The notes below the pieces were generated by a model that had not been told where the DNA came from, did no database searches, and saw nothing but the letters and a program-made list of their open reading frames with translations. From the NCBI RefSeq assembly GCF_000703085.1, contig NZ_JNLL01000001.1, positions 1,426,001 to 1,490,000 on the forward strand: a stretch of DNA of 64,000 nucleotides, given 5' to 3'. The stretch comes from Persephonella sp. KM09-Lau-8 (GTDB lineage: Bacteria > Aquificota > Aquificia > Aquificales > Hydrogenothermaceae). Position 1 is the stretch's first letter. The number at the start of each line of letters is the position of its first letter. Below are positions 15,150 to 30,736 of the stretch, piece after piece. A program made the position numbers and the translations under genes.

Positions 15150-15558
15150 TTCTGGTATGTTCCTTTAGTTTATCTAAAATCTTTTCTATAATAGGTAAAT
15201 AAATATGCAGATCTTTAAATATCTTTTCAGCAACCTCCTCGTGATAAGTATGTGAAGTCATATTCCTATCATCTATCATTTCAAGTAAAGTTGTCGTTTC
15301 GTCTTCCGTTAAATATCCTGCTGAAAAGAAATCCCTAATACAACCTTTAGGAGATTTACAATCAATACCTGAATGTTCATAGAGGAAGTTTTTTAACGTT
15401 TTCCACATAATTTCAACTGTAAACTCGAAACGCTGAATCGTTGAGTCTCTGAAAAATGTATAGTAATCATCTTCTTTATGTTTTAAAGTTTCTTCATAGG
15501 ATTCTTTTAATCTCCCAAATGCCTTTTCAAAATCTTCTAATCTCTTTTTTAAAGCCAT
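15142..15558 (-). CDS. hepT: HEPN-domain toxin (HepT/HI0074 type)
   Basis: 138 residues, all helical. The HEPN RNase signature R-x4-H is present as RNMTSH (Arg98, His103). In HepT-MntA systems this protein is the toxin and the adjacent minimal nucleotidyltransferase inactivates it by adding AMP to a tyrosine next to the motif; HTYHEE supplies such a tyrosine. The start overlaps the end of the nucleotidyltransferase gene by 10 bases and the end overlaps hypA by 8. The pair sits between hypE and hypA. Confidence 0.85.
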   Translation of the reverse strand: MALKKRLEDFEKAFGRLKESYEETLKHKEDDYYTFFRDSTIQRFEFTVEIMWKTLKNFLYEHSGIDCKSPKGCIRDFFSAGYLTEDETTTLLEMIDDRNMTSHTYHEEVAEKIFKDLHIYLPIIEKILDKLKEHTRNA

Positions 15559-15842
15559 CTTTTTCCTTTTTCTTTTACGGTTTTTCTTAAATACGGTGCA
15601 TTTTTTAAATCCACTATATCTACTTTATAAGGGAGATTGCTCTCTTCAAGTATATATTTTAGCTGTGATAATCTTTGGCTTATATCTTTATTTGATTCAA
15701 ATGCCAGATCTATATCTGAATGTTCTGTATTTTTTCCTTCTGCCCGTGAACCAAAAAGATATACTTTTACATTTTCATCTTTAAAAAATTCTTTTAAAAA
15801 CTGCTTTAAATCTTCAATTGTTTTTATTTTTTGCGTTTTCAT
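15549..15842 (-). CDS. mntA: MNT-type nucleotidyltransferase antitoxin (MntA)
   Basis: 97 residues, a minimal nucleotidyltransferase. The signature GSRAEGKNTEHSDIDL is complete: Gly31-Ser32 and the metal-binding Asp43 and Asp45. In studied relatives it adenylylates and silences the HEPN partner. The gene precedes and overlaps the HEPN gene, the standard order. It follows the PIN gene by only 5 bases, so two toxin-antitoxin modules lie back to back between hypE and hypA. Confidence 0.85.
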   Translation of the reverse strand: MKTQKIKTIEDLKQFLKEFFKDENVKVYLFGSRAEGKNTEHSDIDLAFESNKDISQRLSQLKYILEESNLPYKVDIVDLKNAPYLRKTVKEKGKRWL

Positions 15843-15847
15843 ATATA

Positions 15848-16255
15848 TTACCTTAAATATTTATCAATAAAACTTTTACTATCCAGAATTTCAATATCAT
15901 CGAATTTTAAATCTTTGTCATTAGTAATCAAGCAATCGCATTTATACTTTTTTGCTAATAGATATTGGATATTATCTTCAAAATCTTTATTTTCTAATTT
16001 TAATGCTTCATATATTAGATTTGTATCTGGAGTGCAAATTTCCATTGCCTCCAGTAATAAAATTAAAAATTCTTTTATTTCATTCTCTTTCTTTTGCTTT
16101 TTTGCAATGTAATTTATATTTACCAATGTAATATCCGAGATATATCCTTCAAATAGTCCTACATCTACACTATTTAAAATTATTGAGGCTTCATAACTAT
16201 TTTTTCTATCAAGCAAGAGGTCTAAAAGTATATTTGTATCTAAAAATATCTTCAC
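15848..16255 (-). CDS. PIN-domain toxin (VapC-like)
   Basis: 135 residues. The PIN fold begins MKIFLDTNILLDLLLDR with the catalytic Asp6. Later acidic residues lie in NKDFEDNIQYLLAKK and CLITNDKDL, matching the PIN_3 branch. PIN toxins are magnesium-dependent RNases, often cutting tRNA or rRNA. The gene follows a Phd-like antitoxin by 2 bases. The product ends with ILDSKSFIDKYLR, the usual PIN tail, so it appears intact. Confidence 0.85.
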   Translation of the reverse strand: MKIFLDTNILLDLLLDRKNSYEASIILNSVDVGLFEGYISDITLVNINYIAKKQKKENEIKEFLILLLEAMEICTPDTNLIYEALKLENKDFEDNIQYLLAKKYKCDCLITNDKDLKFDDIEILDSKSFIDKYLR

Positions 16256-16257
16256 CT

Positions 16258-16521
16258 TTAATCCTGAACTATGTTGTTGTATCTGTCATCGTTTATTTTG
16301 AGATTTTTATCTAACATGCCTCTAAATTTGGAAAACTTTCCTGTAGATAACATATTTAACAAATCTTCTTTATTCTGACATTGAGAGATTAATTTTAGGT
16401 ATTCTTTATATGGAATGATTACTGCCTTTTTTTCTTTCTTTTTATTATCAATTATTAATGTGCTTTCATTCAGTATTTTTGTAAAATTTTTTTGAGCCTG
16501 ACTTATGTTTAAAACTTTCAT
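16258..16521 (-). CDS. Phd/YefM-like antitoxin
   Basis: 87 residues from the ATG at 16521, preceded by GAGGTG; the GTG at 16530 lies in that site. The N-terminus MKVLNISQAQKNFTKILNES and the strand KKEKKAVIIPYKEYLKL match the Phd/YefM DNA-binding fold (Ala-Arg-x-Asn-Phe replaced by AQKNF). The acidic, less ordered C-terminus should wrap the PIN toxin encoded next. It lies 75 bases after hypE, with its own palindrome upstream. Confidence 0.75.
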   Translation of the reverse strand: MKVLNISQAQKNFTKILNESTLIIDNKKKEKKAVIIPYKEYLKLISQCQNKEDLLNMLSTGKFSKFRGMLDKNLKINDDRYNNIVQD

Positions 16522-16538
16522 AATAAACACCTCAAAGA

Positions 16539-16554
16539 TTATATATGTATATAA
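16539..16554 (-). promoter_or_regulatory. Candidate antitoxin operator
   Basis: TTATATA-TG-TATATAA is a perfect dyad 18 bases upstream of the Phd-like start codon, in the right place for autoregulation. The strongly AT-rich background makes such dyads common, so support is modest. Confidence 0.3.
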
Positions 16555-16596
16555 TAAGTTTAAATCTACATATTTTCAATATGAGGTTATATGTAT

Positions 16597-17595
16597 TTAA
16601 CAAATCCTTGGCAAAAGTTCTCCTGCAGGTGGTTCCATTATTCTTTTTGAGCCATAAGGGGATTTCAGGATTACTTTTCCTTTGTAGTTGGAAATTGCTT
16701 TTCCTATTATTTGGGCGTCTTTTCCAAGTTCATTATTTTTCATAACTTCCAGAGCTTTTTCTGCTTCGTTTTCAGGAACAGCTAATATTAATTTTCCTTC
16801 GTTTGCCAGTGTATAAGGTTCAAGTCCAAGAAGTTCACAGAGCCCTTGAATTTCATCTTTTACAGGGATTTTTTCCTCTTCTACTTCTATTCCAATATTT
16901 GACTGCTCTGCCCATTCATTTAAAACTGCTGATAGTCCTCCTCTTGTTGGATCTCTCATTGTTTTTATGGTTATTCCTGCATTAATTAAATCTTCCACCA
17001 GTGGCCATAAAGAAGCGCAATCAGAGGCTATATCTCCTTCAAGCTCTATTCCTTCCCTTTGAGCCATTATACAGGCTCCGTGGTCTCCCATTGTTCCAGA
17101 AACTAAGATAACATCTCCTTCTTTTATGTTGTGTGCTGAAATTCCTTCATAAACTATCTCTCCAATTCCTGTTGTGTTTATAAAAATCTTGTCTGCTGAA
17201 CCTTTTGGAACTACTTTTGTATCCCCTGTGACTATCTGCACTCCTGTTTTGTTCATTTCTTCTGCCATCGATTTAACAATTTCTTCTAATTCTTCAAACA
17301 GTAGTCCTTCTTCTATAATAAAGGAACAGCTTAAATATTTGGGTTTTGCTCCCATCATGGCAAGGTCGTTAACTGTTCCAGCTATAGCTAGTTTCCCTAT
17401 GTTTCCACCTTTAAAGAAAATAGGTGATACTGTGAAACTATCTGTTGTAAAGGCAAGTTTTGAGTTCATGTCTAAAACTGCTGCATCTTCCATACTTTCT
17501 AAAATAGGATTTGAAAAATGTTTAAAAAATAGCTCTTTTATTAGTTTTTGAGTTTCTTCTCCTCCACCGCCGTGGGATAAGAGTATCTGTTTCAT
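16597..17595 (-). CDS. hypE: Hydrogenase maturation protein HypE
   Basis: 332 residues. The N-terminal SHGGGGEETQKLI and the glycine-rich ATP-binding region (AIAGTVNDLAMMGAKP) place it in the PurM/SelD/HypE fold. The C-terminus ends PRIC, whose final cysteine accepts the carbamoyl group from HypF. HypE then dehydrates it to thiocyanate for transfer to iron. The ribosome binding site (AAGAGGT) lies in the tail of the DUF433-like gene just upstream. Together with hypC, hypD, hypA and hypF it completes the Fe(CN)2CO pathway in this operon. Confidence 0.95.
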   Translation of the reverse strand: MKQILLSHGGGGEETQKLIKELFFKHFSNPILESMEDAAVLDMNSKLAFTTDSFTVSPIFFKGGNIGKLAIAGTVNDLAMMGAKPKYLSCSFIIEEGLLFEELEEIVKSMAEEMNKTGVQIVTGDTKVVPKGSADKIFINTTGIGEIVYEGISAHNIKEGDVILVSGTMGDHGACIMAQREGIELEGDIASDCASLWPLVEDLINAGITIKTMRDPTRGGLSAVLNEWAEQSNIGIEVEEEKIPVKDEIQGLCELLGLEPYTLANEGKLILAVPENEAEKALEVMKNNELGKDAQIIGKAISNYKGKVILKSPYGSKRIMEPPAGELLPRIC

Positions 17596-17624
17596 AGGCT
17601 ATACCTCTTTATGTTTTAATACTT

Positions 17625-17789
17625 CTAATATAGCTTCTTTAAAAGCTGAGGATAGTTTTCTAAAATGTTATCTATAGTTTCACCAGCTAATAAAAAGTCT
17701 AAAATCAGATAGACAGGAATTCTTGTTCCTTTAAAAACTGGTTTTCCACCAAGAATATTTGGATTTCTTTCTATATATTTATATTTCAT
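17625..17789 (-). CDS. Small DUF433-family protein, probably frameshifted at its end
   Basis: 54 residues. It has the DUF433 core: NPNILGGKPVFKGTRIPVYLILDFLLAGETIDNILENYPQ. The reading frame then ends early with LLKKLY. Adding one base at 17638-17640 would continue it as LLKEAILEVLKHKEV to a TAG at 17599-17601, giving 63 residues and a 3-base gap to hypE. That fits the compact packing of the operon. DUF433 proteins usually act as antitoxins for PIN-like or DUF5615 toxins. The start overlaps the end of the PIN gene by four bases. Confidence 0.65.
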   Translation of the reverse strand: MKYKYIERNPNILGGKPVFKGTRIPVYLILDFLLAGETIDNILENYPQLLKKLY

Positions 17790-18199
17790 CTTCTTCTCTC
17801 AAATGGATTTATTATTACCGTCTTATTTTCAATTATCTGTTTATGCTGCATATCTTCACTGTACAGAATCTTACAATTATTTTCTAAAGCCGTTGAAATA
17901 ATTAGAGAATCATAATAACTATATTTATACTTATGTTTAATTAAATGTGCTTTTTTTATGGTTGCTATTTCAAATTGAGTTACATCTACTATTGTCAAAA
18001 TTTCATCTATAACATTTAGTGCATTTTGATAATCCAATTTGAATTTTTTGTATAAAATACTGGATAACTCATTAATGACTTGAGTAGATATCAAACAATT
18101 TTCTTCTAATAATATTTTATTTGCAATTATTCTTTTATCTTGTTCATCTTCCGAAAATGCATAAATCAAAATATTCGTGTCTAAAAAAACATATTCCAT
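17786..18199 (-). CDS. PIN-domain toxin (VapC-like)
   Basis: 137 residues. MEYVFLDTNILIYAFSEDE carries the first PIN aspartate (Asp7). VINELSSIL supplies the conserved Glu, and YSYYDSLIISTALENNCKILYSEDMQH the C-terminal acidic cluster. It is an RNase toxin by family. The start directly follows the stop of a 60-residue partner gene with no gap, and the end overlaps a DUF433 gene. It may have two candidate antitoxins, one on either side. It differs in sequence from the PIN proteins at 15.8 kb and 30.0 kb, so the three are not recent copies. Confidence 0.85.
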   Translation of the reverse strand: MEYVFLDTNILIYAFSEDEQDKRIIANKILLEENCLISTQVINELSSILYKKFKLDYQNALNVIDEILTIVDVTQFEIATIKKAHLIKHKYKYSYYDSLIISTALENNCKILYSEDMQHKQIIENKTVIINPFERRR

Positions 18200-18382
18200 C
18201 TATCTACTCTCAGCTTCTTCTCTATCAAACTTAAAATTTTTTGTTTTAAGCCTTAATGAGAATAAGAAACCTTTTTCCTTCTTTTCTAATTCTTCTTTTA
18301 ATTTTTTCAATCCTTCTTTTGTATTTTTTGCCTTTATTTTTAAATTTATGTCTTCATCAACTTCTATGATTATTTTTCCCAT
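18200..18382 (-). CDS. Probable antitoxin of the PIN protein
   Basis: 60 residues: a beta-rich start (MGKIIIEVDEDINLKIKAK), a Lys/Glu helix (TKEGLKKLKEELEKKEKGF) and an acidic tail (FDREEAESR). The size, the AbrB- or VapB-like first strands and the zero gap to the PIN toxin support an antitoxin role. No specific family is recognised. It lies 49 bases after hypD on the same strand. Confidence 0.6.
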   Translation of the reverse strand: MGKIIIEVDEDINLKIKAKNTKEGLKKLKEELEKKEKGFLFSLRLKTKNFKFDREEAESR

Positions 18383-18431
18383 TACTAGTCTCCTTAGTCC
18401 AAATTTTCCAAATTTTCCTAAGTTAAATATA

Positions 18432-19544
18432 TTAAACCAGTTCTAACTTGCCATATTTATAATAAGCAGCACAGGCTCCTTCTGAAGATACCATGCAAGA
18501 ACCAAGTGGATTTTGAGGTGTGCAGGCAGTTCCAAAAACTTTGCATTCATAAGGTTTAGCCACACCTTTTAAAATATCTCCACATATACAAAGTTTATGG
18601 TCGTCAATTGGTTCATTTGGAAGTATATCAACGAAAACTTTCTCTGCATCTAAATCTGCATATTCATCTTTTAGCTTTAATGCTGAATATGGAATATCTC
18701 CTATTCCTCTCCATCTGAAGTTTTCTCGGGGCTCCATATATTTATTTATCATTTCTTGTGCTTTTGTATTTCCTTCCCAGGTAACAGCCCTTTTGTACTG
18801 GATTTCTACTTCTCTTCTGTTTTCTTTAAATTGTCTAATAATCCATAAAATACTTTCCATAATATCCACAGGTTCAAATCCTGCTACGACAACAGGAGTG
18901 TTATATAAATCAACAAACTCTTTGTATATTTTTGCCCCTGCTATTACAGATACATGGGAGGGACCTATGAAAGCATCTATCTTTGCTTCTCCACTGTCCA
19001 TTATCGCTTTGACAGGGGGAGGAACAAGGACATGGTTTATATGAAAGTAAATATTTTTGATGTTCTCTTGAATAACTTTTTCAATTAGAGCCGCTGTCAT
19101 AGGAGTTGTGGTTTCAAATCCTATTGCAAAATATATAACGTTTTTATCTGGATTTTCTTTTGCTATTTTGAGAATATCAAATGGGGCATAGACCATTTTT
19201 ACATTTTTTCCCTTTGCCCTTTCTTTTTGGAGGGAGCTTTTTGAGCCTGGAACTCTAATCATATCCCCAAGGGTTGCTATTATATTATTCTCATCCTGCA
19301 CCAATGCTATTGCGTGGTCTATTCTTTCTTTGGGCATTATGCAGACAGGACAACCAGGACCATGGATAAAGTCTATTTCTTCAGGTAGTAATTGTTTTAA
19401 ACCATACTTCATTATGGTATGTGTATGTCCTCCACAAACTTCCATTATGTTTAATGGTCTGTCTGCTTCCTTTCTAATTAGTTTTGCTAAAGCTTGAATT
19501 CTTTTTGAATCTCTAAAGTCTTTGAGATAATCAACCTGTTGCAT
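18432..19544 (-). CDS. hypD: Hydrogenase maturation protein HypD
   Basis: 370 residues, full length. The conserved motifs are CGGHTHTIMKYGL, GPGCPVCI, the GFETTTP and HVSVIAG segments, and the C-terminal [4Fe-4S] cysteines CICGDILKGVAKPYEC and FGTACTP. With HypC it forms the scaffold where iron receives its cyanide and CO ligands before transfer to the large subunit. It is the second hyp gene of the operon, separated from hypC by a TumA-TumE-like toxin-antitoxin pair. Confidence 0.95.
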   Translation of the reverse strand: MQQVDYLKDFRDSKRIQALAKLIRKEADRPLNIMEVCGGHTHTIMKYGLKQLLPEEIDFIHGPGCPVCIMPKERIDHAIALVQDENNIIATLGDMIRVPGSKSSLQKERAKGKNVKMVYAPFDILKIAKENPDKNVIYFAIGFETTTPMTAALIEKVIQENIKNIYFHINHVLVPPPVKAIMDSGEAKIDAFIGPSHVSVIAGAKIYKEFVDLYNTPVVVAGFEPVDIMESILWIIRQFKENRREVEIQYKRAVTWEGNTKAQEMINKYMEPRENFRWRGIGDIPYSALKLKDEYADLDAEKVFVDILPNEPIDDHKLCICGDILKGVAKPYECKVFGTACTPQNPLGSCMVSSEGACAAYYKYGKLELV

Positions 19545-19553
19545 GGTAATACC

Positions 19554-19913
19554 TCATGTATTTTCTTTGATTTTATCTTGGACAAATCTTAAAAAATCTC
19601 TAAATCCATTTTCTATATCTGTTCTGAAAGGAGGCTCTTGTATATTACTTTGTTCTTCAAAATGAAAATGATAGGGAAAACTTTTTAATTTCTTTGCTTT
19701 TCTATCTGGAAAATTATCATATCTAAAAATTTTTCCATCGATACATTCCCAGTGAAAACCAAATTTATTTTTTAATTTTTGCGATAAAAAGGTATCAATA
19801 AAACTTCCGTCAATTAGGATTATTCGAAGTTTATAATCTTTTATATACGAATACCTTATAATTTCTTTAAATTCCAGCTGTGCAATCTTTTGGAGTTTTT
19901 CCAAATTAGCCAT
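19554..19913 (-). CDS. TumE-like toxin (DUF6516 family)
   Basis: 119 residues. The pattern IRYSYIKDYKLRIILIDGSFIDTFLS, then FGFHWECIDGKIFRYDNFPDRKAKKLKSFPYHFHFEEQ matches the DUF6516/TumE group of small proteins that pair with an HTH or helical antitoxin. The conserved HW, RYDN and HxHF residues are present. It overlaps the upstream partner gene by 8 bases and ends 10 bases before hypD. Confidence 0.7.
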   Translation of the reverse strand: MANLEKLQKIAQLEFKEIIRYSYIKDYKLRIILIDGSFIDTFLSQKLKNKFGFHWECIDGKIFRYDNFPDRKAKKLKSFPYHFHFEEQSNIQEPPFRTDIENGFRDFLRFVQDKIKENT

Positions 19914-20187
19914 TTAATTTTTCCAAAAGTTTTTCTATTTTTTCTTTTTCTGCTTCTAAGTTGTCCAATAAAAAATAATCTTCGAACGCTTCTTCTTCTA
20001 TAATTTCACCTTCTTTTGCTTTTTTGTCTAACTCATAAATATTTTCTACACTGAACCTTTTCTTAATTCTAAAAATTTCGCTTTCTATTTCTAAAAGCTT
20101 ATCTTGAAGATATTTTTTCAAACTTTCTTTTATTAATTCATCTTCAGGTATAGACAATTCTTTTGCTATAGAAGTTATGTTTATCAT
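19906..20187 (-). CDS. Probable TumA-like antitoxin
   Basis: 93 residues, all helical. The N-terminus SIAKELSIPEDELIKESLKKYLQDKL looks like a small helix-turn-helix or ribbon-like DNA-binding segment. A long Glu/Lys coiled coil follows (DNLEAEKEKIEKLLEKL). It overlaps the TumE-like gene and begins 17 bases after hypC, so the pair was inserted between hypC and hypD. Position, size and charge give the antitoxin call. Confidence 0.6.
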   Translation of the reverse strand: MINITSIAKELSIPEDELIKESLKKYLQDKLLEIESEIFRIKKRFSVENIYELDKKAKEGEIIEEEAFEDYFLLDNLEAEKEKIEKLLEKLNG

Positions 20188-20203
20188 TTCTTTCTCCTTC
20201 CCT

Positions 20204-20446
20204 TTACAAATTTTCCTCTTCCTCTATATGTTTTATAATCTCTTCGTAAACTTTTAAACTTTCAAGGGCATCTTCCTCACTCATTTTTGTCATTGCATAT
20301 CCTACATGGATTAAAACATAATCTCCAACTTCAACTGGTTCAGACATAAGGTCTAAAGATACTTTCCTTTTAACCCCCATTGTATCTACTATTGCATAAT
20401 TATCAGGAAGTATTTCAACAATCTTTGATGGTATTGATAAACACAT
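20204..20446 (-). CDS. hypC: Hydrogenase maturation chaperone HypC
   Basis: 80 residues starting MCLSIPSKIVEI, with the essential Cys2 that binds the iron centre. The OB-fold strands and the end (DYVLIHVGYAMTKMSEEDALESLKVYEEI) are typical. HypC shuttles the Fe(CN)2CO unit between HypD and the hydrogenase large subunit. It is the first gene of the long minus-strand hyp operon. Its promoter carries one of four copies of the AATGAAT-N4-ATTCATT operator. Confidence 0.95.
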   Translation of the reverse strand: MCLSIPSKIVEILPDNYAIVDTMGVKRKVSLDLMSEPVEVGDYVLIHVGYAMTKMSEEDALESLKVYEEIIKHIEEEENL

Positions 20447-20460
20447 CTTTATCCTCTCTG

Positions 20461-20478
20461 AATGAATTATTATTCATT
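20461..20478 (-). promoter_or_regulatory. Hydrogenase-regulon operator, copy 1 (hypC)
   Basis: AATGAAT-TATT-ATTCATT, a perfect 7-bp dyad with a 4-bp centre. It starts directly after the hypC -10 box and so covers the expected transcription start. The same dyad with the same spacing occurs at 28577, 33116 and 35461. Confidence 0.8.
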
Positions 20479-20507
20479 AATTTATCATTATGAATAGATA
20501 ATCTCAA
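20479..20507 (-). promoter_or_regulatory. Promoter of the hyp operon
   Basis: On the minus strand TTGAGA (20507-20502), 17-bp spacer, TAAATT (20484-20479). The operator abuts the -10 box. Confidence 0.6.
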
Positions 20508-20523
20508 TAAAGAAGGTTGAAAG

Positions 20524-20556
20524 TTATATCTGTTAAGATATATTTTAAGATATAAT
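20524..20556 (+). promoter_or_regulatory. Promoter and repeats of the RHH-RelE module
   Basis: Two direct repeats TTAAGATATA (20533-20542 and 20545-20554) lie 12 bp apart. An inverted TTATATC (20524-20530) answers GATATAA (20549-20555). A TATAAT box (20551-20556) overlaps the second repeat. Ribbon-helix-helix antitoxins bind such tandem sites, so autoregulation is expected. Confidence 0.5.
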
Positions 20557-20586
20557 ACTTAAAAACAAATTATAAAGGTGCTTAAA

Positions 20587-20820
20587 ATGGCTACAGTAAA
20601 AAAACTTATAAGCATGGAAGAAAGTTTAGCTAAAGAACTTGAAAATATCTCAAAAATTTTAGAAATACCTCAAAGTGAGATAGTGGAAAGGGCTTTGGAT
20701 TTTTACCTTGATTATATAGATGGAATGATTGCAGAGAAGGTAAGTAAGGGAATAAGAGAAGGAAAAATAAAGGTTAAAGATGCTGACGAAGTATTTAAAA
20801 GGTTAGGAATAGATGTATAA
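20587..20820 (+). CDS. Ribbon-helix-helix antitoxin
   Basis: 77 residues from the ATG at 20587; the GTG at 20578 touches the ribosome binding site AAAGG. The N-terminus TVKKLISMEESLAKELENISKILEIPQSEIVERALDFYLD is the CopG/RHH DNA-binding fold. The C-terminal VSKGIREGKIKVKDADEVFKRLG is the toxin-binding tail. It overlaps the RelE-like toxin gene. It is divergent from hypC and so uses its own promoter. Confidence 0.8.
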   Translation: MATVKKLISMEESLAKELENISKILEIPQSEIVERALDFYLDYIDGMIAEKVSKGIREGKIKVKDADEVFKRLGIDV

Positions 20821-21094
20821 ACTAAAAATTTCAGAAGTGGCAGAAAAAGATTTAGAAAAATTTTCTGTTGATGAAAGAGTTTTTATAGCAGAAAAACTCA
20901 AATATTTAGCAGAAAATTTTGAAATTCTGAAAAAAACTAAAAAAGTTAATAAGCTCCAAGGATACGATAAATACTACAGATATATAATATCTCGAAAAAT
21001 AAGGGCAATATTTGAGGTTGAAGGAAATAAGATTATAATCCTTATACTTAGAGTTGGCAAAAGAAAGGATATATATAAGGATTTAGAATTTTGA
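20813..21094 (+). CDS. RelE/ParE-like toxin
   Basis: 93 residues with the RelE fold: KISEVAEKDLEKFSVDERVFIAEKLKYL, then the core KVNKLQGYDKYYRYIISRKIRAIFEVEGNKIIILILRVGKRKDIY. The basic and aromatic residues expected for ribosome-dependent mRNA cleavage (Arg in YRYIISRKIRAIF, Arg-x-Gly-Lys-Arg-x-x-x-Tyr at the end) are present, so it is probably active. Its start lies inside the antitoxin gene. Confidence 0.85.
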   Translation: MYKLKISEVAEKDLEKFSVDERVFIAEKLKYLAENFEILKKTKKVNKLQGYDKYYRYIISRKIRAIFEVEGNKIIILILRVGKRKDIYKDLEF

Positions 21095-21182: not shown

Positions 21183-21794
21183 ATGGAAATTTCATATGAC
21201 CTTTCTAAGAACTTAAAAGTAGTTGTTGGTTTACTCCCATTTTTAACAATTGTAGTAGGTGTAATTATTTATATTGTAGGATATTTCATAAAGAAACACA
21301 CTAAATCTTATTTTGATAATCATATCAAAGATGAACTTCAAAAAATGTTTAATGGATATAAACATGAAATTTATGAACATTTGAAAGATTTAAAGGATTT
21401 TAAGGAGTTCAAGGAAAGTAAGATACTTATAATAAACGATAAAAACAGAAGCATAGATAAGATGACATTATTAGCAAATTTTATAAACAAGGATGTCAAG
21501 GATCTTCATGAAATAGAGAATATTAAAAAAAAGGATATAGAAAGATATTCAATGATTATAATAGATAATGATGATGAAAGGATTAATCAAAATTTGGAAA
21601 AGTGGAAAAATCTTATAGAGAAAGTTCCTAATCATACTCCGATTATAATTTATGCAACAGAAAATAAACTAGAGTCAAATGAACTGTTTATTTTCAAGAA
21701 TAAACTATTCACACCGGTTAACAGTAATTTTACGTTGATAGAAAAACTATATAATGCGTTCTTAATAAGAAAAGTTATGGAAGATAAAAAATAA
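21183..21794 (+). CDS. Membrane-anchored protein with a Rossmann-like NARF-type domain
   Basis: 203 residues. One membrane span (about 14-36) follows a short N-terminus. A charged linker (HIKDELQKMFNGYKHEIYEHLKDLKDFKEF) comes next. The soluble domain (from about 78) has alternating strands and helices (KILIINDKN, YSMIIIDNDDE, HTPIIIYATEN), reminiscent of receiver or NARF-like nucleotide-sensing folds. No catalytic motif is clear. It lies after the RelE module on the same strand. A 24-codon frame with a ribosome binding site (21125-21199) overlaps its start and may only be a leader. Confidence 0.6.
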   Translation: MEISYDLSKNLKVVVGLLPFLTIVVGVIIYIVGYFIKKHTKSYFDNHIKDELQKMFNGYKHEIYEHLKDLKDFKEFKESKILIINDKNRSIDKMTLLANFINKDVKDLHEIENIKKKDIERYSMIIIDNDDERINQNLEKWKNLIEKVPNHTPIIIYATENKLESNELFIFKNKLFTPVNSNFTLIEKLYNAFLIRKVMEDKK

Positions 21795-21852: not shown

Positions 21853-23979
21853 CTATATAAAAACTCCTCCTAATGCTATATTTTGCCTGTCCACAGGTAA
21901 TTTTTTGTTTCTAAGGAGATTGTAGTTTCCTGAAAAATGGGGAAGAAGTTTTCCTGTTAATACTGGGTTTGTGAATATGTCTCCTGCCATAACTACATTG
22001 TTAAGTTTCAGTTTGTATAAAATGGAACTGCCTTCCTTTTCTATCCATTCCTTAAAGCCTTCTATCACTGAAAAGGCAAGCATTTTGTTATCTGTATCAG
22101 CCAGTTTAAAAGAAAGTGTGGAGTGAATGATTTTTCTCCAGTCTAAATAAAATTCCTCATCTATTTCCTCTAAAAAGTAGTCTATTCTAAGGCCTCTTTT
22201 TGCCTCAAATGATAAAGCCTCTTTTAAAAGTGCCTGATAAGGCTGGTCAAAATATGATGGTTCTTTATTAAAAATTCCCAGAAGATACGAAATCACGTTG
22301 AAAACTGCTGTTATACTGCTTTTTTCCTGATAGCTTTGAGAAGATATTTCTCCTGAAAACTGTGGAAATTTTTCTCTCCATCGGTTAATAAGTCTTTTAG
22401 CTTCTTCAGAACTTTTTTCTATCTCCTCTAATACCCATAAAGCAGTATCTTTCAGATTGTCGTATATACGAATAGGCAGGACTTTTATCAAAGGATTTAC
22501 TGTTTTATTTTTGTAAATAGCTATCATATCTTCGTTTGAATAAGATGAAAAATAAAAACATAACGCCTTTTCTGAAAGTTTATTATTTTCTGCTAAAACA
22601 GATAAAATAGCTCCTTCATATTTCTTAAAAGTTTTTTTCTTTTTATAAGGAATATCTATATTTTCTTCAATTCCTTCTAAAATATTTAAACTAATTATTT
22701 CATCTACAAAATCTTTTAGCTGGTATATCAGTTTTTCCTTTTTATCTACTAAATACTCCCCATTCCCAAGGTCTAAGGCTATATAATCCTCGGTTATTGC
22801 AAGATTGCCTGTAGGTTTTGCCTTTATTATTTCAGGTAAAATACCTTTTTCTCCTTCTTTTATAAATATTTCTCCGTTTATAAGAACTACTTCTGTTTCT
22901 TTTTGCTTGTTTATCACAGGAAGGTCAGCATTTAGCTCAAAATCGGTTATTGCTTTCTGAAATTCATCAGTTATATAAGCGTAAAAGATATAATCTATTT
23001 CCTCTTCTTTTAAATGATTTGCTAAAAGCAGTAGTATAGGCTCATCTGGGAATTTGATTTTTCCATATCCAAGGTCTGGGAATAATAAATCTTTTTCTGG
23101 TAGTTCTTTAAACGGGAGCAGGACAACTGGCTTTTCCTGTGAGGCAAGTGCTTTTAGTTCTGGCTGGTCTATATGGAAATATTTAGAAAGATTTTGTGGA
23201 TTTGTTATTAGTAAGTTCAAAGGCTTTTCTCTAAGGCCTAAAAACTGTCTGACCTTTGAAATATTTTCTTCTGTTGGAATTCCTGCAACGATTTCTCCTG
23301 CAGTTGTATATACCCTAAGTAAATTTCCTTTTTTTATAACTCCTGCTGCTGTTCTAATAGCTCCTACAGTTTTTTCATTATCAAATCCGTATCTTTCATT
23401 TTCTCCTTTTTTTAGATAGATAGGTGTTAAACAGTTATGGCAGGCTGTTAGTGGGTATTTATATCTAAAACTGTTTTCATCATTAAACTCTTTTTCGCAG
23501 TCTTTACACATTTTAAAAAATTTGAAAACTGTTTTTTCCCTCTCAAATGGATATTCATACAGATACGAGTAATGACTGCCACAGTTACTGCAGGATATAA
23601 ACGGAAAATAAAATCTTCTGTTGGAGATATCAAATAGCTCCTTTGTGCATGTTGGACAGGGAGAGAGATTTTTAGGAAGTATGTTTATCTCTCCTTTTAT
23701 ATGGAAAGGTCTGTCTTCTTCTTCAAAGTTTTCAACTGGATAGGTTTTTGCCTCAGACATAAAAATTGAGTAAGGAAGCTTTTCCCCAAGCTCAGAGTAA
23801 AATTTTTCTATATCTTTCTGACTACCTGAAACATATATATAAACTGTGTCTTTTTTTCTTTCTACAAAGCCGTTTATTCCTGTTTTTTTACCTATTTTAT
23901 AAATCAGGTCTATTATATGGTCGTTTCCAGAATAATAATCAAAAACTGTTTTTAACTTTAGCTGCTCCATTGTTTCCAT
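21853..23979 (-). CDS. Degenerate HypF paralogue in the hydrogenase operon
   Basis: 708 residues that align along their length with HypF. The four zinc-finger cysteine pairs are kept (108/111, 130/133, 158/161 and 180/183, with CSNCGSHYSYLYEYPFER like HypF CTNCGPRFTIIEKLPYDR). A YrdC-like domain follows (KTVGAIRTAAGVIKKGNLLRVY). The acylphosphatase loop GxVQGVGFRP is replaced by an unrelated sequence without its Arg. In the Kae1-like part HHYAHAL has become YEGAILS, WDGTGYG is lost, and ANDGG has become VDRQNI. Carbamoyl transfer is therefore unlikely. A scaffold or chaperone specific to the exported hydrogenase is my inference. It directly follows the maturation protease gene. Confidence 0.8.
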   Translation of the reverse strand: METMEQLKLKTVFDYYSGNDHIIDLIYKIGKKTGINGFVERKKDTVYIYVSGSQKDIEKFYSELGEKLPYSIFMSEAKTYPVENFEEEDRPFHIKGEINILPKNLSPCPTCTKELFDISNRRFYFPFISCSNCGSHYSYLYEYPFEREKTVFKFFKMCKDCEKEFNDENSFRYKYPLTACHNCLTPIYLKKGENERYGFDNEKTVGAIRTAAGVIKKGNLLRVYTTAGEIVAGIPTEENISKVRQFLGLREKPLNLLITNPQNLSKYFHIDQPELKALASQEKPVVLLPFKELPEKDLLFPDLGYGKIKFPDEPILLLLANHLKEEEIDYIFYAYITDEFQKAITDFELNADLPVINKQKETEVVLINGEIFIKEGEKGILPEIIKAKPTGNLAITEDYIALDLGNGEYLVDKKEKLIYQLKDFVDEIISLNILEGIEENIDIPYKKKKTFKKYEGAILSVLAENNKLSEKALCFYFSSYSNEDMIAIYKNKTVNPLIKVLPIRIYDNLKDTALWVLEEIEKSSEEAKRLINRWREKFPQFSGEISSQSYQEKSSITAVFNVISYLLGIFNKEPSYFDQPYQALLKEALSFEAKRGLRIDYFLEEIDEEFYLDWRKIIHSTLSFKLADTDNKMLAFSVIEGFKEWIEKEGSSILYKLKLNNVVMAGDIFTNPVLTGKLLPHFSGNYNLLRNKKLPVDRQNIALGGVFI

Positions 23980-24546
23980 CTAAAACTCCTGAATTCGTTT
24001 TTCTGATAGTTCTCCGTTGTATGAACCGAAATGTTTTTTGACAACTTCTTTTAAGGGTATATCGTTAATCTTTTCATATTTTATGCCGATTCTGTCTAAT
24101 TCTTTAAATATCTGGGCAATGGCTGTTTTGAAAGGAGTTCCTTCAAGGGTTTGTGTTAAACCTATCTCTGAAGCACAGATATTCTCTGGAATTATTCCTA
24201 TTACAACGGTGTCTGCCATTTTTCCTGTAAGTGGGGTTAGCTCTATCATCTGGAGAACTTCTACCTCGTGGGCTGTCTGGTGGTATGAGGCAATACCTGA
24301 CAGTTGCTCTGGTGTAAGTCTAAAAACACTTCCCGGTTTGTCGTTCATAGAGATTGTATCTATGAGGATTATATGGTCGTATTCATGGAGATAAGACATA
24401 AGACCAAAACCCAGTGTACCTGCATCTATCAGGTCTATTTCTGGTTCAAACCTATAATTTTCCTGAAGATACTTAACTATAAAAACTCCTATCCCTTCAT
24501 CTTTAAATAAAATATTTCCAACACCAACTATTCCGATTTTTTTCAT
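23980..24546 (-). CDS. hyaD: Hydrogenase maturation protease (HyaD/HupD family)
   Basis: 188 residues from the ATG at 24546, which has GGTG upstream; an ATG at 24558 is in frame. KKIGIVGVGNILFKDEGIGVFIV gives the nickel-binding Glu, DLIDAGTLGFGLM the Asp, and YHQTAHEVEVLQMI the His. The enzyme removes the C-terminal tail of the exported large subunit after nickel insertion. The extended C-terminus beyond the usual 160 or so residues is charged. It abuts the HypF-like gene. Confidence 0.9.
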   Translation of the reverse strand: MKKIGIVGVGNILFKDEGIGVFIVKYLQENYRFEPEIDLIDAGTLGFGLMSYLHEYDHIILIDTISMNDKPGSVFRLTPEQLSGIASYHQTAHEVEVLQMIELTPLTGKMADTVVIGIIPENICASEIGLTQTLEGTPFKTAIAQIFKELDRIGIKYEKINDIPLKEVVKKHFGSYNGELSEKRIQEF

Positions 24547-24618
24547 GATTTTCACCATTTAAAAATTTTTACTATTGTAGTTTATTTTTCGAAAATTTAT
24601 TTTTGCAAGGAGTATCCA

Positions 24619-24816
24619 ATGGAAGAGATTGAGGTTTGTATTTGTAAAAGGATAACCCTTTCTGAGATACTTCAGGCAATAGATGAAGAAGGTATAAAAG
24701 ACCTTGAAACCTTGATAGAGAAAACAAAAGCCGGAACAGTTTGTAAAATGTGTATATCCCCTGAAGAGGACCCTTACGGTGAAAGGGATATACACCTGAC
24801 AGAACTTTTAAAGTAA
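24619..24816 (+). CDS. BFD-like [2Fe-2S] protein
   Basis: 65 residues resembling bacterioferritin-associated ferredoxin. The cysteine set C-x-C (Cys7, Cys9) and C-x2-C (Cys42, Cys45) frames the motif RITLSEILQAI, LETLIEKTKAGTVCKMC. The domain also occurs in NifU and in nitrite reductases. It lies on the opposite strand, between the cytochrome b gene and the protease gene of the hydrogenase operon. A ribosome binding site (AAGGAG) precedes it. Its partner is unknown; a small electron carrier for iron handling or hydrogenase assembly is possible. Confidence 0.8.
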   Translation: MEEIEVCICKRITLSEILQAIDEEGIKDLETLIEKTKAGTVCKMCISPEEDPYGERDIHLTELLK

Positions 24817-24836: not shown

Positions 24837-25526
24837 TTATTTAACCTTTTTGAATTTATATCCACCGAATACAATAGCGATATCCCCTTCTTTCCAGAAA
24901 ATTGTTCTCCATACCTGATAGTAAATATGGAAAGCTACCCATGCAAGTATTATCCACATTGTAAAGTGATGCCACCATCTAACTCCTGCATGACCTCCAA
25001 GTAGCCATCCTACCCAGTCAGTAGCAAGATGAAGCAATGCCGGCCACCATGAACCTATAGCAGACAAACCGCTTTCTAAACCTTGAACATACATATAAAA
25101 ACCCGTTAAAAGCATCCATACAAGAAGGAGATGAAGAATAGTAAAATAAACAGCATTAAAACTATCTAAATGGGAACTATCAAAATTCTTTCTTCTATTC
25201 AGTGTAATAAGATTTAAGAACACTTCCCAGAACTCTTTTATATTCTGCCTATTGGGGATTAATTTTTTAATTGGTTTTTCAAACCTACTTGCAAAATAAA
25301 GATAGAAAATGGCAATAGAAACGACATCAAGAAGAAGTGCAGCAAAAAAGTGTATAAGTCTGTTATAAGCCATTACATATTTATAAGCTGCAGGTTCAGA
25401 TATTAATGTTTGATAATAGGGATGCCCTATGTAAAACCCTGTTATAACAGCTGCCAGAATAGAAAAGGCATTTATCCAGTGAAAAATTCTCATTGTTTTT
25501 GTCATTCTTTTTACTTTTTGATACAT
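24837..25526 (-). CDS. hyaC: Ni/Fe-hydrogenase b-type cytochrome subunit
   Basis: 229 residues with four membrane spans, HyaC/HupC family. Heme-ligand histidines occur in RIFHWINAFSILAAVITGFYIGHPYY, in NRLIHFFAALLLDV and in the C-terminal RWWHHFTMWIILAWVAFHIYYQVWR. It anchors the exported small and large subunits to the cytoplasmic membrane and passes electrons from H2 to the quinone pool. It starts 15 bases after the large subunit gene. Confidence 0.93.
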   Translation of the reverse strand: MYQKVKRMTKTMRIFHWINAFSILAAVITGFYIGHPYYQTLISEPAAYKYVMAYNRLIHFFAALLLDVVSIAIFYLYFASRFEKPIKKLIPNRQNIKEFWEVFLNLITLNRRKNFDSSHLDSFNAVYFTILHLLLVWMLLTGFYMYVQGLESGLSAIGSWWPALLHLATDWVGWLLGGHAGVRWWHHFTMWIILAWVAFHIYYQVWRTIFWKEGDIAIVFGGYKFKKVK

Positions 25527-25541: not shown

Positions 25542-27305
25542 TTAAATGAAGCAAGCTCCACCTACAGGTTCAACTTTGTATACGCCAAGTTCTTTTCCTT
25601 TTGTATCAATAACATGAACAGCACAGGCAATACATGGGTCAAAGGAGTGAATTGTTTTTAGTATCTCAAGGGGCTGGTCTGGGTTTGAAAGAGTAGTTCC
25701 AATTAAAGAAGCCTCATAGGCTCCCATTCTATTTTTGTAATCCCTTGGTGCTCCGTTCCATGTTGATGGAACAACAGCCTGATAGTTTTCTACTTTTCCA
25801 TCTTTTATTCTAATCCAGTGTCCAAGAGCTCCCCTTGGTGCCTCTGTTAAACCGTATCCTTTTAATTCTTTTCCTTTTGTCAATTTTTCAAAATCATACT
25901 CTGTCCATGTGCTTAAATCTCCAGCAGCAACATTTTTGGCAAGTTCTGTCAACCATTCTTTCATAACATCAACCATTAAGGCTGTCTCTATAGCCCTTGC
26001 TGCTGTTCTTCCAACAGTTGAGAACAATGCTTTTGCAGGAAGATTTCCTGACTTTAATAGCCAGTCAACATAATGTTTTATTCTTTCATCACCTCTGGCA
26101 TATCCTACTATCATTCTGGCTAATGGTCCTACTTCAACTCTATGGTCATCATATATTGGAGATTTTATCCATGAGTATTTTCCTTTAGGGTCTAATGTTC
26201 CATCTGGTTTGAAGCCTGTATATTTTGGATTTGTCTGTCCTTCAAACGGGTGTAAGGGTTTGTCTGTTCCTTTATATTCATACCAGCTATGGGTTACGTC
26301 TTCTGTTATTTTTGACTGGTCAACATCATAAACTTTGGTTAAATCCATGTTCAAAACAAGCCCTTGTGGGAATAATGTTTTCCCTTGATACCATGGATTA
26401 TCATCCATTCGGAAATCGCCGTAAGCCATATAGTTTCCTAATCCTCTTCCTATTCCGGCTAAAGCTTCTTCTGCGTAAACAGTTCCAGCCATTAAAATAT
26501 CAGGCAGATATGCCCTGTATATGAATTCTCTTGAAAGACCTAATATGTCTCCAAAATGACCAAGTCTTGCTGGGTTTTGAATATCCTGAACACAGGTAAC
26601 ACCACCTACAACCAGTGATTGTGGGTGAGGGTTTTTACCACCGAAAATAGCCATAAGCTTAGCCATTTCCCTTTGTATCTGGAGTGCATCAAGATAGTGG
26701 CCTACAGCTACAAGGTTTTGCTCTGGAGTAAGTTTATAGGATTTGTTTCCCCAGTAAGCATTAGCAAAAGGTCCCAATCTTCCAGCTTTTACAAATTTTG
26801 TAAGCCTATCCTGAACAGCTTTGAACTCTCCTACTCCATCTTTCCATGGTCTTATTGTTTCTCCTGTAATAGGGTCTTTTAGCATAGATGCCCATTTTCT
26901 TGCTTCTTCAGCTGCTTTTGCAGGGTCAGCTTTTAGAGCAGATACCACATCAACCCAATCTAAAGCGTGGAGATGGTAAAAATGAACAACGTGGTCATGT
27001 ATATAAAGAGAACCCTGGATAAGATTTCTAACAAGTCTTGCATTTTTTGGAGGAACAACTCCAAGTGCATGCTCAACTGTTTGTGTTGATGTATAGTAGT
27101 GGGTTCCTGTGCACACTCCACATATTCTCATTGCCAGGAGAGGCACATCCCTTGGGTCTCTCCCTTTCATTATTACTTCTATTCCACGCCACATTGTAGA
27201 CGAGCTGTATGCATCAACTATTGTGTTGTTATCATCTAAGATGGCTTCTATTCTTAAATGCCCTTCTATTCTTGTGATTGGGTCAACTACCACATGTTTT
27301 CCCAT
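25542..27305 (-). CDS. hyaB: Membrane-bound [NiFe] hydrogenase, large subunit (group 1)
   Basis: 587 residues. The L1 motif RICGVCTGTH (Cys62, Cys65) and the L2 motif DPCIACAVH (Cys558, Cys561) provide the four nickel ligands. After His564 a 23-residue tail (VIDTKGKELG onward) remains for HyaD-type cleavage; this is longer than the usual 15 or so. It carries the active site and travels to the periplasm with the Tat-bearing small subunit. The gene lies between the small subunit gene (12-base gap) and the cytochrome gene. Confidence 0.96.
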   Translation of the reverse strand: MGKHVVVDPITRIEGHLRIEAILDDNNTIVDAYSSSTMWRGIEVIMKGRDPRDVPLLAMRICGVCTGTHYYTSTQTVEHALGVVPPKNARLVRNLIQGSLYIHDHVVHFYHLHALDWVDVVSALKADPAKAAEEARKWASMLKDPITGETIRPWKDGVGEFKAVQDRLTKFVKAGRLGPFANAYWGNKSYKLTPEQNLVAVGHYLDALQIQREMAKLMAIFGGKNPHPQSLVVGGVTCVQDIQNPARLGHFGDILGLSREFIYRAYLPDILMAGTVYAEEALAGIGRGLGNYMAYGDFRMDDNPWYQGKTLFPQGLVLNMDLTKVYDVDQSKITEDVTHSWYEYKGTDKPLHPFEGQTNPKYTGFKPDGTLDPKGKYSWIKSPIYDDHRVEVGPLARMIVGYARGDERIKHYVDWLLKSGNLPAKALFSTVGRTAARAIETALMVDVMKEWLTELAKNVAAGDLSTWTEYDFEKLTKGKELKGYGLTEAPRGALGHWIRIKDGKVENYQAVVPSTWNGAPRDYKNRMGAYEASLIGTTLSNPDQPLEILKTIHSFDPCIACAVHVIDTKGKELGVYKVEPVGGACFI

Positions 27306-27317
27306 ATCTTAAACCTC

Positions 27318-28562
27318 CTATTGTTCTTCCTTTGTTTCATCTTTTTTGCCTGCAATGGCACTTGCTACAGCATGAACACCAATTCCAATTGCTGTAGCTG
27401 TAAGGATTCCAAGACCTACTTCATCAACAGTGGCTTCAACTCCATGTAAACCTGGTGGTTGTATATCACTATCTGCCAGTGGTCTTTCTGTTGCATACTT
27501 GTCCCAAAAATCTGGTTCAGAACAACCGATACATCCTCTTCCTACACCAATAGGCCAGTTGGTTCCTTCGTTATATCTGACTATTGAACAGTTATTAAAG
27601 GTAAATGGTCCTTTACAGCCCATTTTATACAGACAGAAATTGTTTTTTGCTCCCTCATCTCCCCATTCCTCCACAAACTCTCCGGCATCAAAGTGGGCTC
27701 TTCTTTCACAGTTGTCGTGAATCCTATATCCAAAGGCAAATTTTGGTCTTAAAAGACTGTCAAGCTCAGGAAGTTCTCCAGTGAGGATATAATGGATTAC
27801 AACACCTGTGATATTTGCAGGGTTTGCAGGACATGCAGGGATATTTACTATAGGTTTACCTTTTACTATATCCATTACACCAACGGCACCTGTTGGATTT
27901 GGATAAGCTGCTGGAACACCTCCAAAGCATGCACAGGCACCGACAGCTATTACTGCAGCTGCATGCTCAGCAAGATGTTTTACATGCTCAACCCCTGTTT
28001 TAGGGTGTCTTCCTATGGTAAATGCTTCAGGCATTCCAACTGGAATTGAGCCTTCTACAAATAGTAAATATTTTCCGTCAAAATCTTTTACTGCCTTGTG
28101 GAGATTTTCTTCAGCCTGATCTCCAGCTGCAGCCATTATAACCTCTTGATACTCAACAGACAGATACTCTAAAATGAGCTCATCAACAGTTGGTGATGCA
28201 CTCCTAAGTAATGCTTCTGTGTTTCCGGCACAGTCCTGGATATTTATCCATATAATTGGAACCCTGTTCATTACCTCAGCTGCCTGTGCCACAAGAGGCT
28301 CAAACTGAGGAGGAAGCATAAGCATTGCAGTTGTTGCAGAAACCCATTTTAAGAAATCCCTTCTGGAAAGTTCCCATGTCTCAAGAAGTTCTTGAAACTT
28401 GATTTCTGCTTCTTTAACAGGTTGCTGAGCTTTAAGCTCGTTGAGTCTTTTTTCCATTTTTTTGTAGAGATTGTCGTAATACTCTTTACCGCGGTTGGTG
28501 TTTATGTAGTTTGTAGGTTTGGTGAAAATAGACCTTAGATGTTCCCTATCAAAGAACTGCAT
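27318..28562 (-). CDS. hyaA: Membrane-bound [NiFe] hydrogenase, small subunit with late Tat signal
   Basis: 414 residues. A twin-arginine motif SRRDFLK lies at 66-72, followed by a hydrophobic stretch (WVSATTAMLML). The 65 residues before it form an unusually long charged n-region; the strong ribosome binding site AGGAGGG supports this start over Met36. The mature part has the Cys ligands of three Fe-S clusters (DCAGNTEAL, CACFGG, CPANP, HDNCERRAHFD, CIGCSEPDFWD) and ends with a membrane helix (VGLGILTATAIGIGVHAVASAIAG) for docking to cytochrome b. It opens the operon hyaA-hyaB-hyaC-hyaD-hypF-like and is preceded by the regulon operator. Confidence 0.94.
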   Translation of the reverse strand: MQFFDREHLRSIFTKPTNYINTNRGKEYYDNLYKKMEKRLNELKAQQPVKEAEIKFQELLETWELSRRDFLKWVSATTAMLMLPPQFEPLVAQAAEVMNRVPIIWINIQDCAGNTEALLRSASPTVDELILEYLSVEYQEVIMAAAGDQAEENLHKAVKDFDGKYLLFVEGSIPVGMPEAFTIGRHPKTGVEHVKHLAEHAAAVIAVGACACFGGVPAAYPNPTGAVGVMDIVKGKPIVNIPACPANPANITGVVIHYILTGELPELDSLLRPKFAFGYRIHDNCERRAHFDAGEFVEEWGDEGAKNNFCLYKMGCKGPFTFNNCSIVRYNEGTNWPIGVGRGCIGCSEPDFWDKYATERPLADSDIQPPGLHGVEATVDEVGLGILTATAIGIGVHAVASAIAGKKDETKEEQ

Positions 28563-28661: not shown

Positions 28662-30032
28662 TTAATGGGTTGTGCAGACTGAACAGACATCAAAACTTCT
28701 TAAAACCATTTCAGCAAGAAGAGAAGACCTTAATCCTTTAATTGATTTTTCAGCAGGGGATAGATATTTAGGGCATCTTGGGCCCAAATTCCATGTGGAA
28801 GGGGTGATGATATTATATTTTTTGATTATTCTTTCTTTAACCTGTATTTCATGTATTAAAGAGCCCCTTGCAGCCTCACAGAAACCAAAGGCTTTTCCTT
28901 CTAACTCTTTTATGTCCTTTTTAGGTTTTATATATGAAGGTTCTTTGATATCTATCTGGGACAGCCAATTTTTCATAGAAAGGAGCAGTTTTAATACTTC
29001 ATCTATTCTTGCCCATGTTCTTACCATGTAGCTATCTTTAAAGTCCTTTACAAGATTCAAAAATAGTTCATCCCTGTTATTGATTCTTCTCGCCAGTGGA
29101 CTGGTTTCATACGGAAGACCATCGTATCTAACAGCTTTAGCCCAGGAGTATCTATTTTTATCAAAGGAAAAACCTTTTTCTGTTAAAAATGAATAAGTAT
29201 CAACTTCCTTTACCTTGTTTATATCAAAATCCTTTCTCTTCCTTTTAGTTGCCCCTTTTGAAATAGAAGGGCTGATATCACACACAGTTAAAAATCTGTG
29301 ATAAGCTCTACCAAGTTTGTGAAGATTGTATTTAAGACACAGGTTTAAAAATATTTTCAGGTCTGAGTTTTTAGCGTTTTTCATATATTCATCAAGATTT
29401 TTTATAGACAAATATTTATCAGCAGGCATTCCAAGAATATTTTTTTCATAAAAATCTAACACTGAGTCTACTATTGCTGTTGCTTCGGCTATATCAAATG
29501 TTGTTGGATCTGATGTTACACCGCCGGGAATTGCATAAGAGGTGTGAGGCCATTGTCCTCCGAATATTGCTACAACTTTTACAATTTTAGAACTGTAATC
29601 TAATCCTTTTCTCCACTGGGAACCTTTTATAGGCTGATATTTTCTAAGCTTAGGATTTTTGTCTAATTTTAGGAAATCAGGTAAAACAAATAGATAAAAC
29701 CATCTGAGATGGTTCTGGATAATCTCTGAAGATAAGGTTAAATCCCTGATTAGCTTTGCTTTTTCTGGAATTTTTATATTTTCCCCTGCATTTTCATATA
29801 GATTTTCAAGGGCTTTGACTGTGGCTATCAGGTGAGCATGTCCACATATACCGCATATTCGGGGATTTATTACAAGGGCATCAAGAGGTAGCTTCCCTTC
29901 TAATATAAACTCAAATCCTCTGAAATTCGGTGCAATTATAAAGGCATCTTTTATCTTTCCATTCTCCCATATAAGCTTAAGCTCTATTTCTCCTTCAACC
30001 CTGTTTAAAACAGTCTTATGAACTTTTGGCAT
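28662..30032 (-). CDS. Soluble [NiFe] hydrogenase, large subunit without a C-terminal tail (group 2-like)
   Basis: 456 residues. L1 is RICGICGHAH (Cys60, Cys63). The protein ends with FDVCSVCTTH, so Cys450 and Cys453 are the other nickel ligands and His456 is the last residue. No cleavable tail follows, and the usual DPC is DVC. Large subunits made in mature length are known among regulatory (HupV/HoxC-type) hydrogenases and would not need a maturation protease. The partner small subunit has no signal peptide, so the enzyme is cytoplasmic. A group 2 uptake or sensory hydrogenase fits best. A toxin-antitoxin module separates the two subunit genes. Confidence 0.88.
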   Translation of the reverse strand: MPKVHKTVLNRVEGEIELKLIWENGKIKDAFIIAPNFRGFEFILEGKLPLDALVINPRICGICGHAHLIATVKALENLYENAGENIKIPEKAKLIRDLTLSSEIIQNHLRWFYLFVLPDFLKLDKNPKLRKYQPIKGSQWRKGLDYSSKIVKVVAIFGGQWPHTSYAIPGGVTSDPTTFDIAEATAIVDSVLDFYEKNILGMPADKYLSIKNLDEYMKNAKNSDLKIFLNLCLKYNLHKLGRAYHRFLTVCDISPSISKGATKRKRKDFDINKVKEVDTYSFLTEKGFSFDKNRYSWAKAVRYDGLPYETSPLARRINNRDELFLNLVKDFKDSYMVRTWARIDEVLKLLLSMKNWLSQIDIKEPSYIKPKKDIKELEGKAFGFCEAARGSLIHEIQVKERIIKKYNIITPSTWNLGPRCPKYLSPAEKSIKGLRSSLLAEMVLRSFDVCSVCTTH

Positions 30033-30033
30033 T

Positions 30034-30450
30034 TTAATCTCTTTTGAGTATGTTTAGGAATTCTTCAGGTTCATATATTGGGATATCATCAGCTTTGAAA
30101 TTTTTCATATTCCTTGTGATTAAGACATCACAGTTTGAATGTATAGCTGAGGCATAAATTACTGCATCTTCAAAATCATTAAAGTCTAATTTTCGTGCTG
30201 TTTCTAACACAGTCCTATTAACAGTGGCCATCTCAAATAAAGAAAAAATCAGGTCTATACTTTTTTCTGCCTCTTTTTTATCTAATGATTTTCTAACCAA
30301 ATAATAAATTGTTGTTATTGTTATAGCACACAAAACTCCAGTAAACTCTCCTTTTTCTACTTTTGAAATTAGCAAAGCTGATTGTTTCGAGAAAGGTTTC
30401 CTATCTAATAAAAGATCTAAAATCACATTGGTGTCTATTAAAACTCTCAA
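30034..30450 (-). CDS. PIN-domain toxin between the hydrogenase subunit genes
   Basis: 138 residues from a TTG start. MRVLIDTNVILDLLLDRKPF has the first catalytic Asp6. FNDFEDAVIYASAIHSNCDVLITRNMKNF carries the central and C-terminal acidic residues. It belongs to the PIN_3-type RNases and resembles the 15.8-kb PIN protein in layout but not closely. The TTG start overlaps the TGA that the upstream antitoxin would use if its frame were restored. It ends 1 base before the large subunit start codon. Confidence 0.87.
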   Translation of the reverse strand: MRVLIDTNVILDLLLDRKPFSKQSALLISKVEKGEFTGVLCAITITTIYYLVRKSLDKKEAEKSIDLIFSLFEMATVNRTVLETARKLDFNDFEDAVIYASAIHSNCDVLITRNMKNFKADDIPIYEPEEFLNILKRD

Positions 30451-30463
30451 AGATATTTTTCCT

Positions 30464-30685: not shown

Positions 30686-30736
30686 AATTGGTACCTCTTT
30701 ACGTATATTTTCCTTATATAATATACGTCATTTTAT

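Follow-up and report, generated by a model that had tools for sequence, protein, structure and literature searches.

HydE, a HypF-like pseudoenzyme encoded behind hydABCD in Persephonella, is a candidate dedicated maturation factor of one [NiFe]-hydrogenase type

We analysed a 64,000-nucleotide stretch (the window) of the 2.07-Mb genome of Persephonella sp. KM09-Lau-8, in which the open reading frame (ORF) at 21853–23979 on the minus strand encodes a 708-residue protein related to the hydrogenase maturation enzyme HypF, which produces the cyanide groups of [NiFe]-hydrogenases. Shared gene order, full-length homology and membership of one clade apart from HypF identify this protein as the HydE encoded by the Campylobacterota hydABCDE operon. 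It appears to be a triple-dead HypF pseudoenzyme, all three catalytic centres being lost family-wide, and on balance we favour a role dedicated to the maturation of membrane-bound [NiFe]-hydrogenases of the hydABC type, the protein being derived from a HypF-type carbamoyltransferase. The hydE family is already known genetically; relative to the open papers, its dead-HypF nature and the presence of one HydE per hydrogenase operon are new.

The 708-residue frame is intact, with 0 internal stops. Its ATG directly abuts the stop codon of the protease gene hydD with no gap and is preceded by AGGAG a few bases 5′, and the genes 5′ of it on the same strand encode the small subunit, large subunit, cytochrome b and protease. 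The assignment of this gene to the hydrogenase structural operon, made in a preliminary description of the sequence, therefore holds: hydE begins right after the protease stop codon, behind hydABC. The operon is organized as follows:

27318–28562, minus strand: hydA, small subunit with twin-arginine translocation (Tat) signal (TIGR00391)
25542–27305, minus strand: hydB, NiFe large subunit, proposed client of HydE (PF00374; association with hydE)
24837–25526, minus strand: hydC, b-type cytochrome anchor (TIGR02125)
23980–24558, minus strand: hydD, hydrogenase maturation protease (PF01750/TIGR00072)
21853–23979, minus strand: hydE, 708 aa, putative HypF-fold pseudoenzyme, beginning right after the hydD stop codon
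23390–23979, minus strand: N-terminal region of hydE, a degenerate acylphosphatase domain (residues ~1–100) followed by four CxxC pairs, C108–C183 (PF00708 and PF07503 matches, residue table)
21853–22809, minus strand: C-terminal region of hydE, a degenerate Kae1-like domain (residues ~391–708) without HHxAH or DGTGYG and with HydE-specific D600, S620 and S623 (PF22521)

Full-length orthologues were found in many sequenced Hydrogenothermaceae and, at 25–28% identity, in Sulfurimonas. The order hydA-hydB-hydC-hydD-hydE was read directly from the loci of H. pullorum, H. valdiviensis, H. burdigaliensis and H. mesocricetorum, and recurs in a Helicobacteraceae metagenome-assembled genome (MAG), a Sulfurimonas MAG and several Hydrogenothermaceae; a second Sulfurimonas arrangement reads hydA-hydB-hydC-hydE-hypF-hydD. 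HydE relatives are widespread in the sampled Campylobacterota and lie near hydB. In the tree, HydE and HypF fall on opposite sides of one branch (support 100), the window HypF grouping with other Aquificota HypF. The preliminary description knew of no described function for this form; as HydE, the form is not undescribed. The Campylobacterota protein (H. pylori HP0635) has in common with it the position after the protease, full-length homology, a single clade and the same motif losses, as compared in other Helicobacter species. The window HydE, from Aquificota, is longer (708 aa) and carries all eight zinc-finger cysteines, whereas Helicobacter HydE has 540–580 aa and one or none of the eight.

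The name is shared with the [FeFe]-hydrogenase maturase HydE, a radical-SAM enzyme of another system. Only the name is common to the two, with an attendant risk of confusion, and identity with that maturase was dropped on these grounds; "HydE" is used in the [FeFe] sense for Sulfurospirillum (PMC4794192). For the hydABCDE protein, two papers report that mutants of H. pylori in hydE have no hydrogenase activity and give the function as unknown (PMC7695850; PMC5557546), and the same papers, which appeared well after the 2004 mutant study, treat the role of HydE as unknown or incompletely understood. The open literature yielded no comparable HypF paralogue or pseudoenzyme, a scope that leaves aside subscription papers, including those on the Wolinella hyd operon, and a 2025 review on NiFe-cofactor assembly makes no mention of HydE. 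No Pfam or NCBIfam model specific for HydE turned up.

To compare motifs, 23 HypF and 55 HydE relatives were aligned jointly, and HypF columns conserved at 95% or more were read across. As a whole protein, HydE scores 163.2 bits against the HypF model TIGR00143, below its cut-off of 466.1, and key catalytic residues of all three motif sets are retained in only ~0–5% of the 55 HydE. The acylphosphatase loop, GxVQGxGxR in HypF, reads YxSGNxHxI in the window protein, with the catalytic Arg (R19) replaced by Ile23 and the Asn (N37) by Arg41; across the family these residues are kept in 5% and 4%, respectively. At the YrdC adenylation site, the window protein has no PTSAN stretch; the P, T and S of this stretch are missing in 55/55 relatives, and KxR is retained in 0%. 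At the Kae1 metal site, HHxAH is replaced by KYxGA (453–457), the three His being retained in 0%; the nucleotide motif DGxGYG reads SSxSNE, with GYG retained in 0–2% and the Asp of DGTGYG aligning with an Asp in 31%; and the DG of ANDGG has become RQ. The losses named in the preliminary description (acylphosphatase loop and its Arg, HHYAHAL metal site, WDGTGYG, altered ANDGG) are thus upheld, and a reading in which the catalytic residues were merely displaced was dropped, since the joint alignment shows them to be lost.

The zinc fingers behave differently. All eight cysteines (C108, C111, C130, C133, C158, C161, C180 and C183) are present in the window HydE, as the preliminary description had stated. 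Among the 55 HydE, eight ligands are kept in 42, four in 5, and one or none in 8, and the fingers appear to have been dropped stepwise in the Helicobacter line. HydE thus has the domain order, zinc fingers and fold of HypF but differs from it in the acylphosphatase, YrdC and Kae1 catalytic residues.

Some positions are conserved in HydE alone, which raises the alternative that it has been re-purposed as an enzyme and has acquired a new active site: S71, D600, S620 and S623 are invariant or nearly so in the 55 HydE and not conserved in HypF, and T225 occupies a position that is mostly Gly in HypF. The HydE–HypF alignment is uncertain around these residues, however, their spatial clustering is only putative and few further polar positions are conserved, so we regard a new enzymatic function as very unlikely.

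The predicted structure indicates that HydE retains the HypF fold. An AlphaFold2 model of HydE built from a 55-row alignment shows a complete HypF fold with a mean predicted local distance difference test (pLDDT) of 94.1 and a predicted template modelling score (pTM) of 0.92. Against the PDB, its top nine matches are all HypF structures at template modelling (TM) scores of ~0.7–0.8, with TsaD/Kae1 and Sua5 further down; the HypE–HypF complex 3vti_A gives 0.79/0.76. A 548-aa Helicobacter relative, whose sequence barely matches any Pfam HypF domain, is predicted at pLDDT 89, and its first structural match is again HypF.

HydE is under purifying selection, with a ratio of nonsynonymous to synonymous substitutions (dN/dS) of 0.09–0.19 among close pairs; for one of these pairs the large subunit gives ~0.04. 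The protein is among the fastest-evolving of the cluster, and this, together with its motif loss and two broken copies (in the low-quality MAG G008 and the duplicated cluster of G304), would be expected of a decaying hypF copy. Full-length open frames persist, however, in 17 Hydrogenothermaceae rows and across Campylobacterota. Decay has virtually no probability in our view, and the pseudogene reading is refuted by both selection and distribution. These dN/dS values, with the apparent family-wide loss of catalytic centres, support the earlier proposal of a working role without carbamoyl transfer.

The distribution of HydE follows one hydrogenase clade. In a survey of 136 Aquificota genomes, with the HydB class defined by at least 72% identity to the window HydB, such a HydB was found in 23 genomes; HydE occurs in 21 of these and nowhere else, including none of the 68 genomes that have only other hydrogenases (Fisher p ~1e-18, uncorrected for relatedness, so that the value overstates independence). 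Both exceptions are drafts, 78% and 86% complete: in one the contig stops after hydC, and in the other, G013, hydDE is not beside hydABC and absence may be real. In G015 (L131), a full-length hydE stands alone ~145 kb from hydABC, so the gene is retained without operon context. Copy number follows the operon as well. Six Campylobacterota genomes (G136, G366, G382, G348, G263 and G266) encode two HydE, one in the vicinity of each of two HydB, and a single HypF. Extra HydB of ~47–51% identity in the sampled Campylobacterota lack HydE, and two of intermediate identity, one in G366 (63%) and one in G266 (72%), likewise have none nearby. The homologue search suggested in the preliminary description ties the lost motifs, shared by all or nearly all of 55 relatives, to one HydB clade. 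As to its reach, a single-protein scan of genome contigs gave 0 matches; the alignment-based scan succeeded but missed most Campylobacterota, and its negatives outside Aquificota and Campylobacterota carry little weight.

These patterns bear on whether HydE might instead serve the common cyanide pathway as a scaffold or regulator, pairing with HypF or mimicking it on HypE and tuning cyanide delivery. The shared HypF fold, the HypE–HypF complex 3vti among the top structural matches and the overlapping or abutting hydE and hypF genes of several genomes are consistent with such a role. Two HydE per HypF in six genomes, the same-phylum genomes that combine HypF and other hydrogenases without HydE, and the Helicobacter hydE standing alone behind hydD, away from hypF, argue against it, and we consider it improbable. 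Because HydE number follows hydABCDE operons while HypF stays single, and because maturation proceeds without HydE in other hydrogenase clades, an assembly role is favoured over a HypE scaffold. Of the two functions entertained in the preliminary description, the large-subunit chaperone survives, subunit-specific assembly being the better fit; the HypE-binding scaffold fits less well with copy number and distribution.

We propose that HydE keeps the HypF body for binding only and would carry out no chemistry of its own, serving as a cytoplasmic chaperone or adaptor for the assembly of a specific subunit. Its client would be the apo large subunit encoded in the same operon, which it would hold or present for the shared Hyp machinery and then for the protease HydD; the zinc fingers may form a structural arm that was dropped in some lineages. 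A subunit-specific assembly factor is the most economical explanation, since HydE is duplicated or retained with single structural operons, like the protease, whereas HypF serves all. HydB as the client is inferred from co-occurrence and the neighbouring protease.

Several observations weigh against this maturation role or its details. HydE evolves far faster than HydB (53% versus 90% and 28% versus 66% identity), which gives no obvious sign of a tightly conserved interface. Instead of the large subunit, HydE could have the small subunit, the cytochrome or the protease as its client. In Sulfurimonas, Sulfurihydrogenibium-like and other genomes, hydE immediately precedes hypF, a placement that also fits a HypF partner, and the link to H. 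pylori HydE was made through the place of hydE in the operons of other Helicobacter species rather than through the HP0635 sequence.

Two further readings of HydE were weighed. One is late assembly, namely HydA–HydB joining, a quality check ahead of Tat export, or bringing the complex to the membrane. A HybE-type Tat chaperone was found in 0/136 Aquificota genomes, which speaks for such a role; HybE is equally missing in HydE-less Aquificota, however, giving no simple replacement of HybE by HydE, and by its fold HydE belongs with cofactor-maturation proteins. We rate late assembly as unlikely; HybE as a functional stand-in was set aside as uninformative. The other is a doubtful but specific version of the maturation role: HydE as a hydrogenase-specific hand-over station, one per operon and a counterpart of HoxV/HupK on another fold, where the apo large subunit and perhaps Fe(CN)2CO from HypCD are joined. 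HoxV/HupK is a hand-over scaffold of oxygen-tolerant hydrogenases, an inactive paralogue encoded with one hydrogenase and acting in its maturation (PMC12134894). HydE is likewise an apparently inactive paralogue of a hydrogenase-system protein tied to one hydrogenase, but HoxV/HupK resemble the large subunit whereas HydE resembles HypF, and they are not homologous. Membership of the HoxV/HupK family was dropped, as Pfam gives HypF-type domains in HydE and no PF00374.

A putative triple-dead HypF that tracks single operons narrows the questions to the identity of the bound subunit and to the point, before or after cofactor insertion, at which maturation is blocked. In practice, hydE-type genes can be mistaken for hypF, and hydE is probably required for recombinant production of hydABC-type hydrogenases.

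The window also encodes the shared maturation genes, including, as the preliminary description had noted, a complete HypF at 11.9–14.1 kb (TIGR00143, 878 bits versus the cut-off of 466), to which HydE is 29% identical across 382 N-terminal residues:

11890–14133, minus strand: hypF, catalytically complete paralogue, 747 aa (TIGR00143, 878 bits)
16597–17595, minus strand: hypE (TIGR02124)
18432–19544, minus strand: hypD (TIGR00075)
20204–20446, minus strand: hypC (PF01455)

In relatives, hypC lies directly behind hydE; in the window, a toxin–antitoxin pair and a 203-aa ORF intervene. This ORF (21183–21794, plus strand, opposite to its neighbours) encodes a protein whose N-terminal segment is hydrophobic and whose C-terminal part gives a weak FleQ-like match. 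Most junctions between genes in the hyd/hyp/hup cluster are occupied by toxin–antitoxin modules (15142–21094 and 30034–30685): an MNT/HEPN pair and PIN/Phd-YefM between hypA and hypE, PIN between hypE and hypD, a TumE-like module between hypD and hypC, RHH/ParE between hypC and hydE, and PIN/CopG between hupL and hupS. The same junctions are often closed in relatives.

Between hydC and hydD, on the opposite strand (24619–24816, plus strand), lies a gene for a 65-aa BFD-like [2Fe-2S] protein (PF04324). Its position is kept in several Hydrogenothermaceae, including G013, where hydDE does not adjoin hydABC, and the protein could bear on electron supply for maturation. Directly upstream of hydABC, a second hydrogenase of cytoplasmic type (HupSL-like, 28662–31666) is encoded without HydE but with TetR and HypB. 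Sulfurimonas L127 has the same HupSL-like/hydABC arrangement, TetR included, which suggests that the whole hydrogenase cluster moved between phyla.
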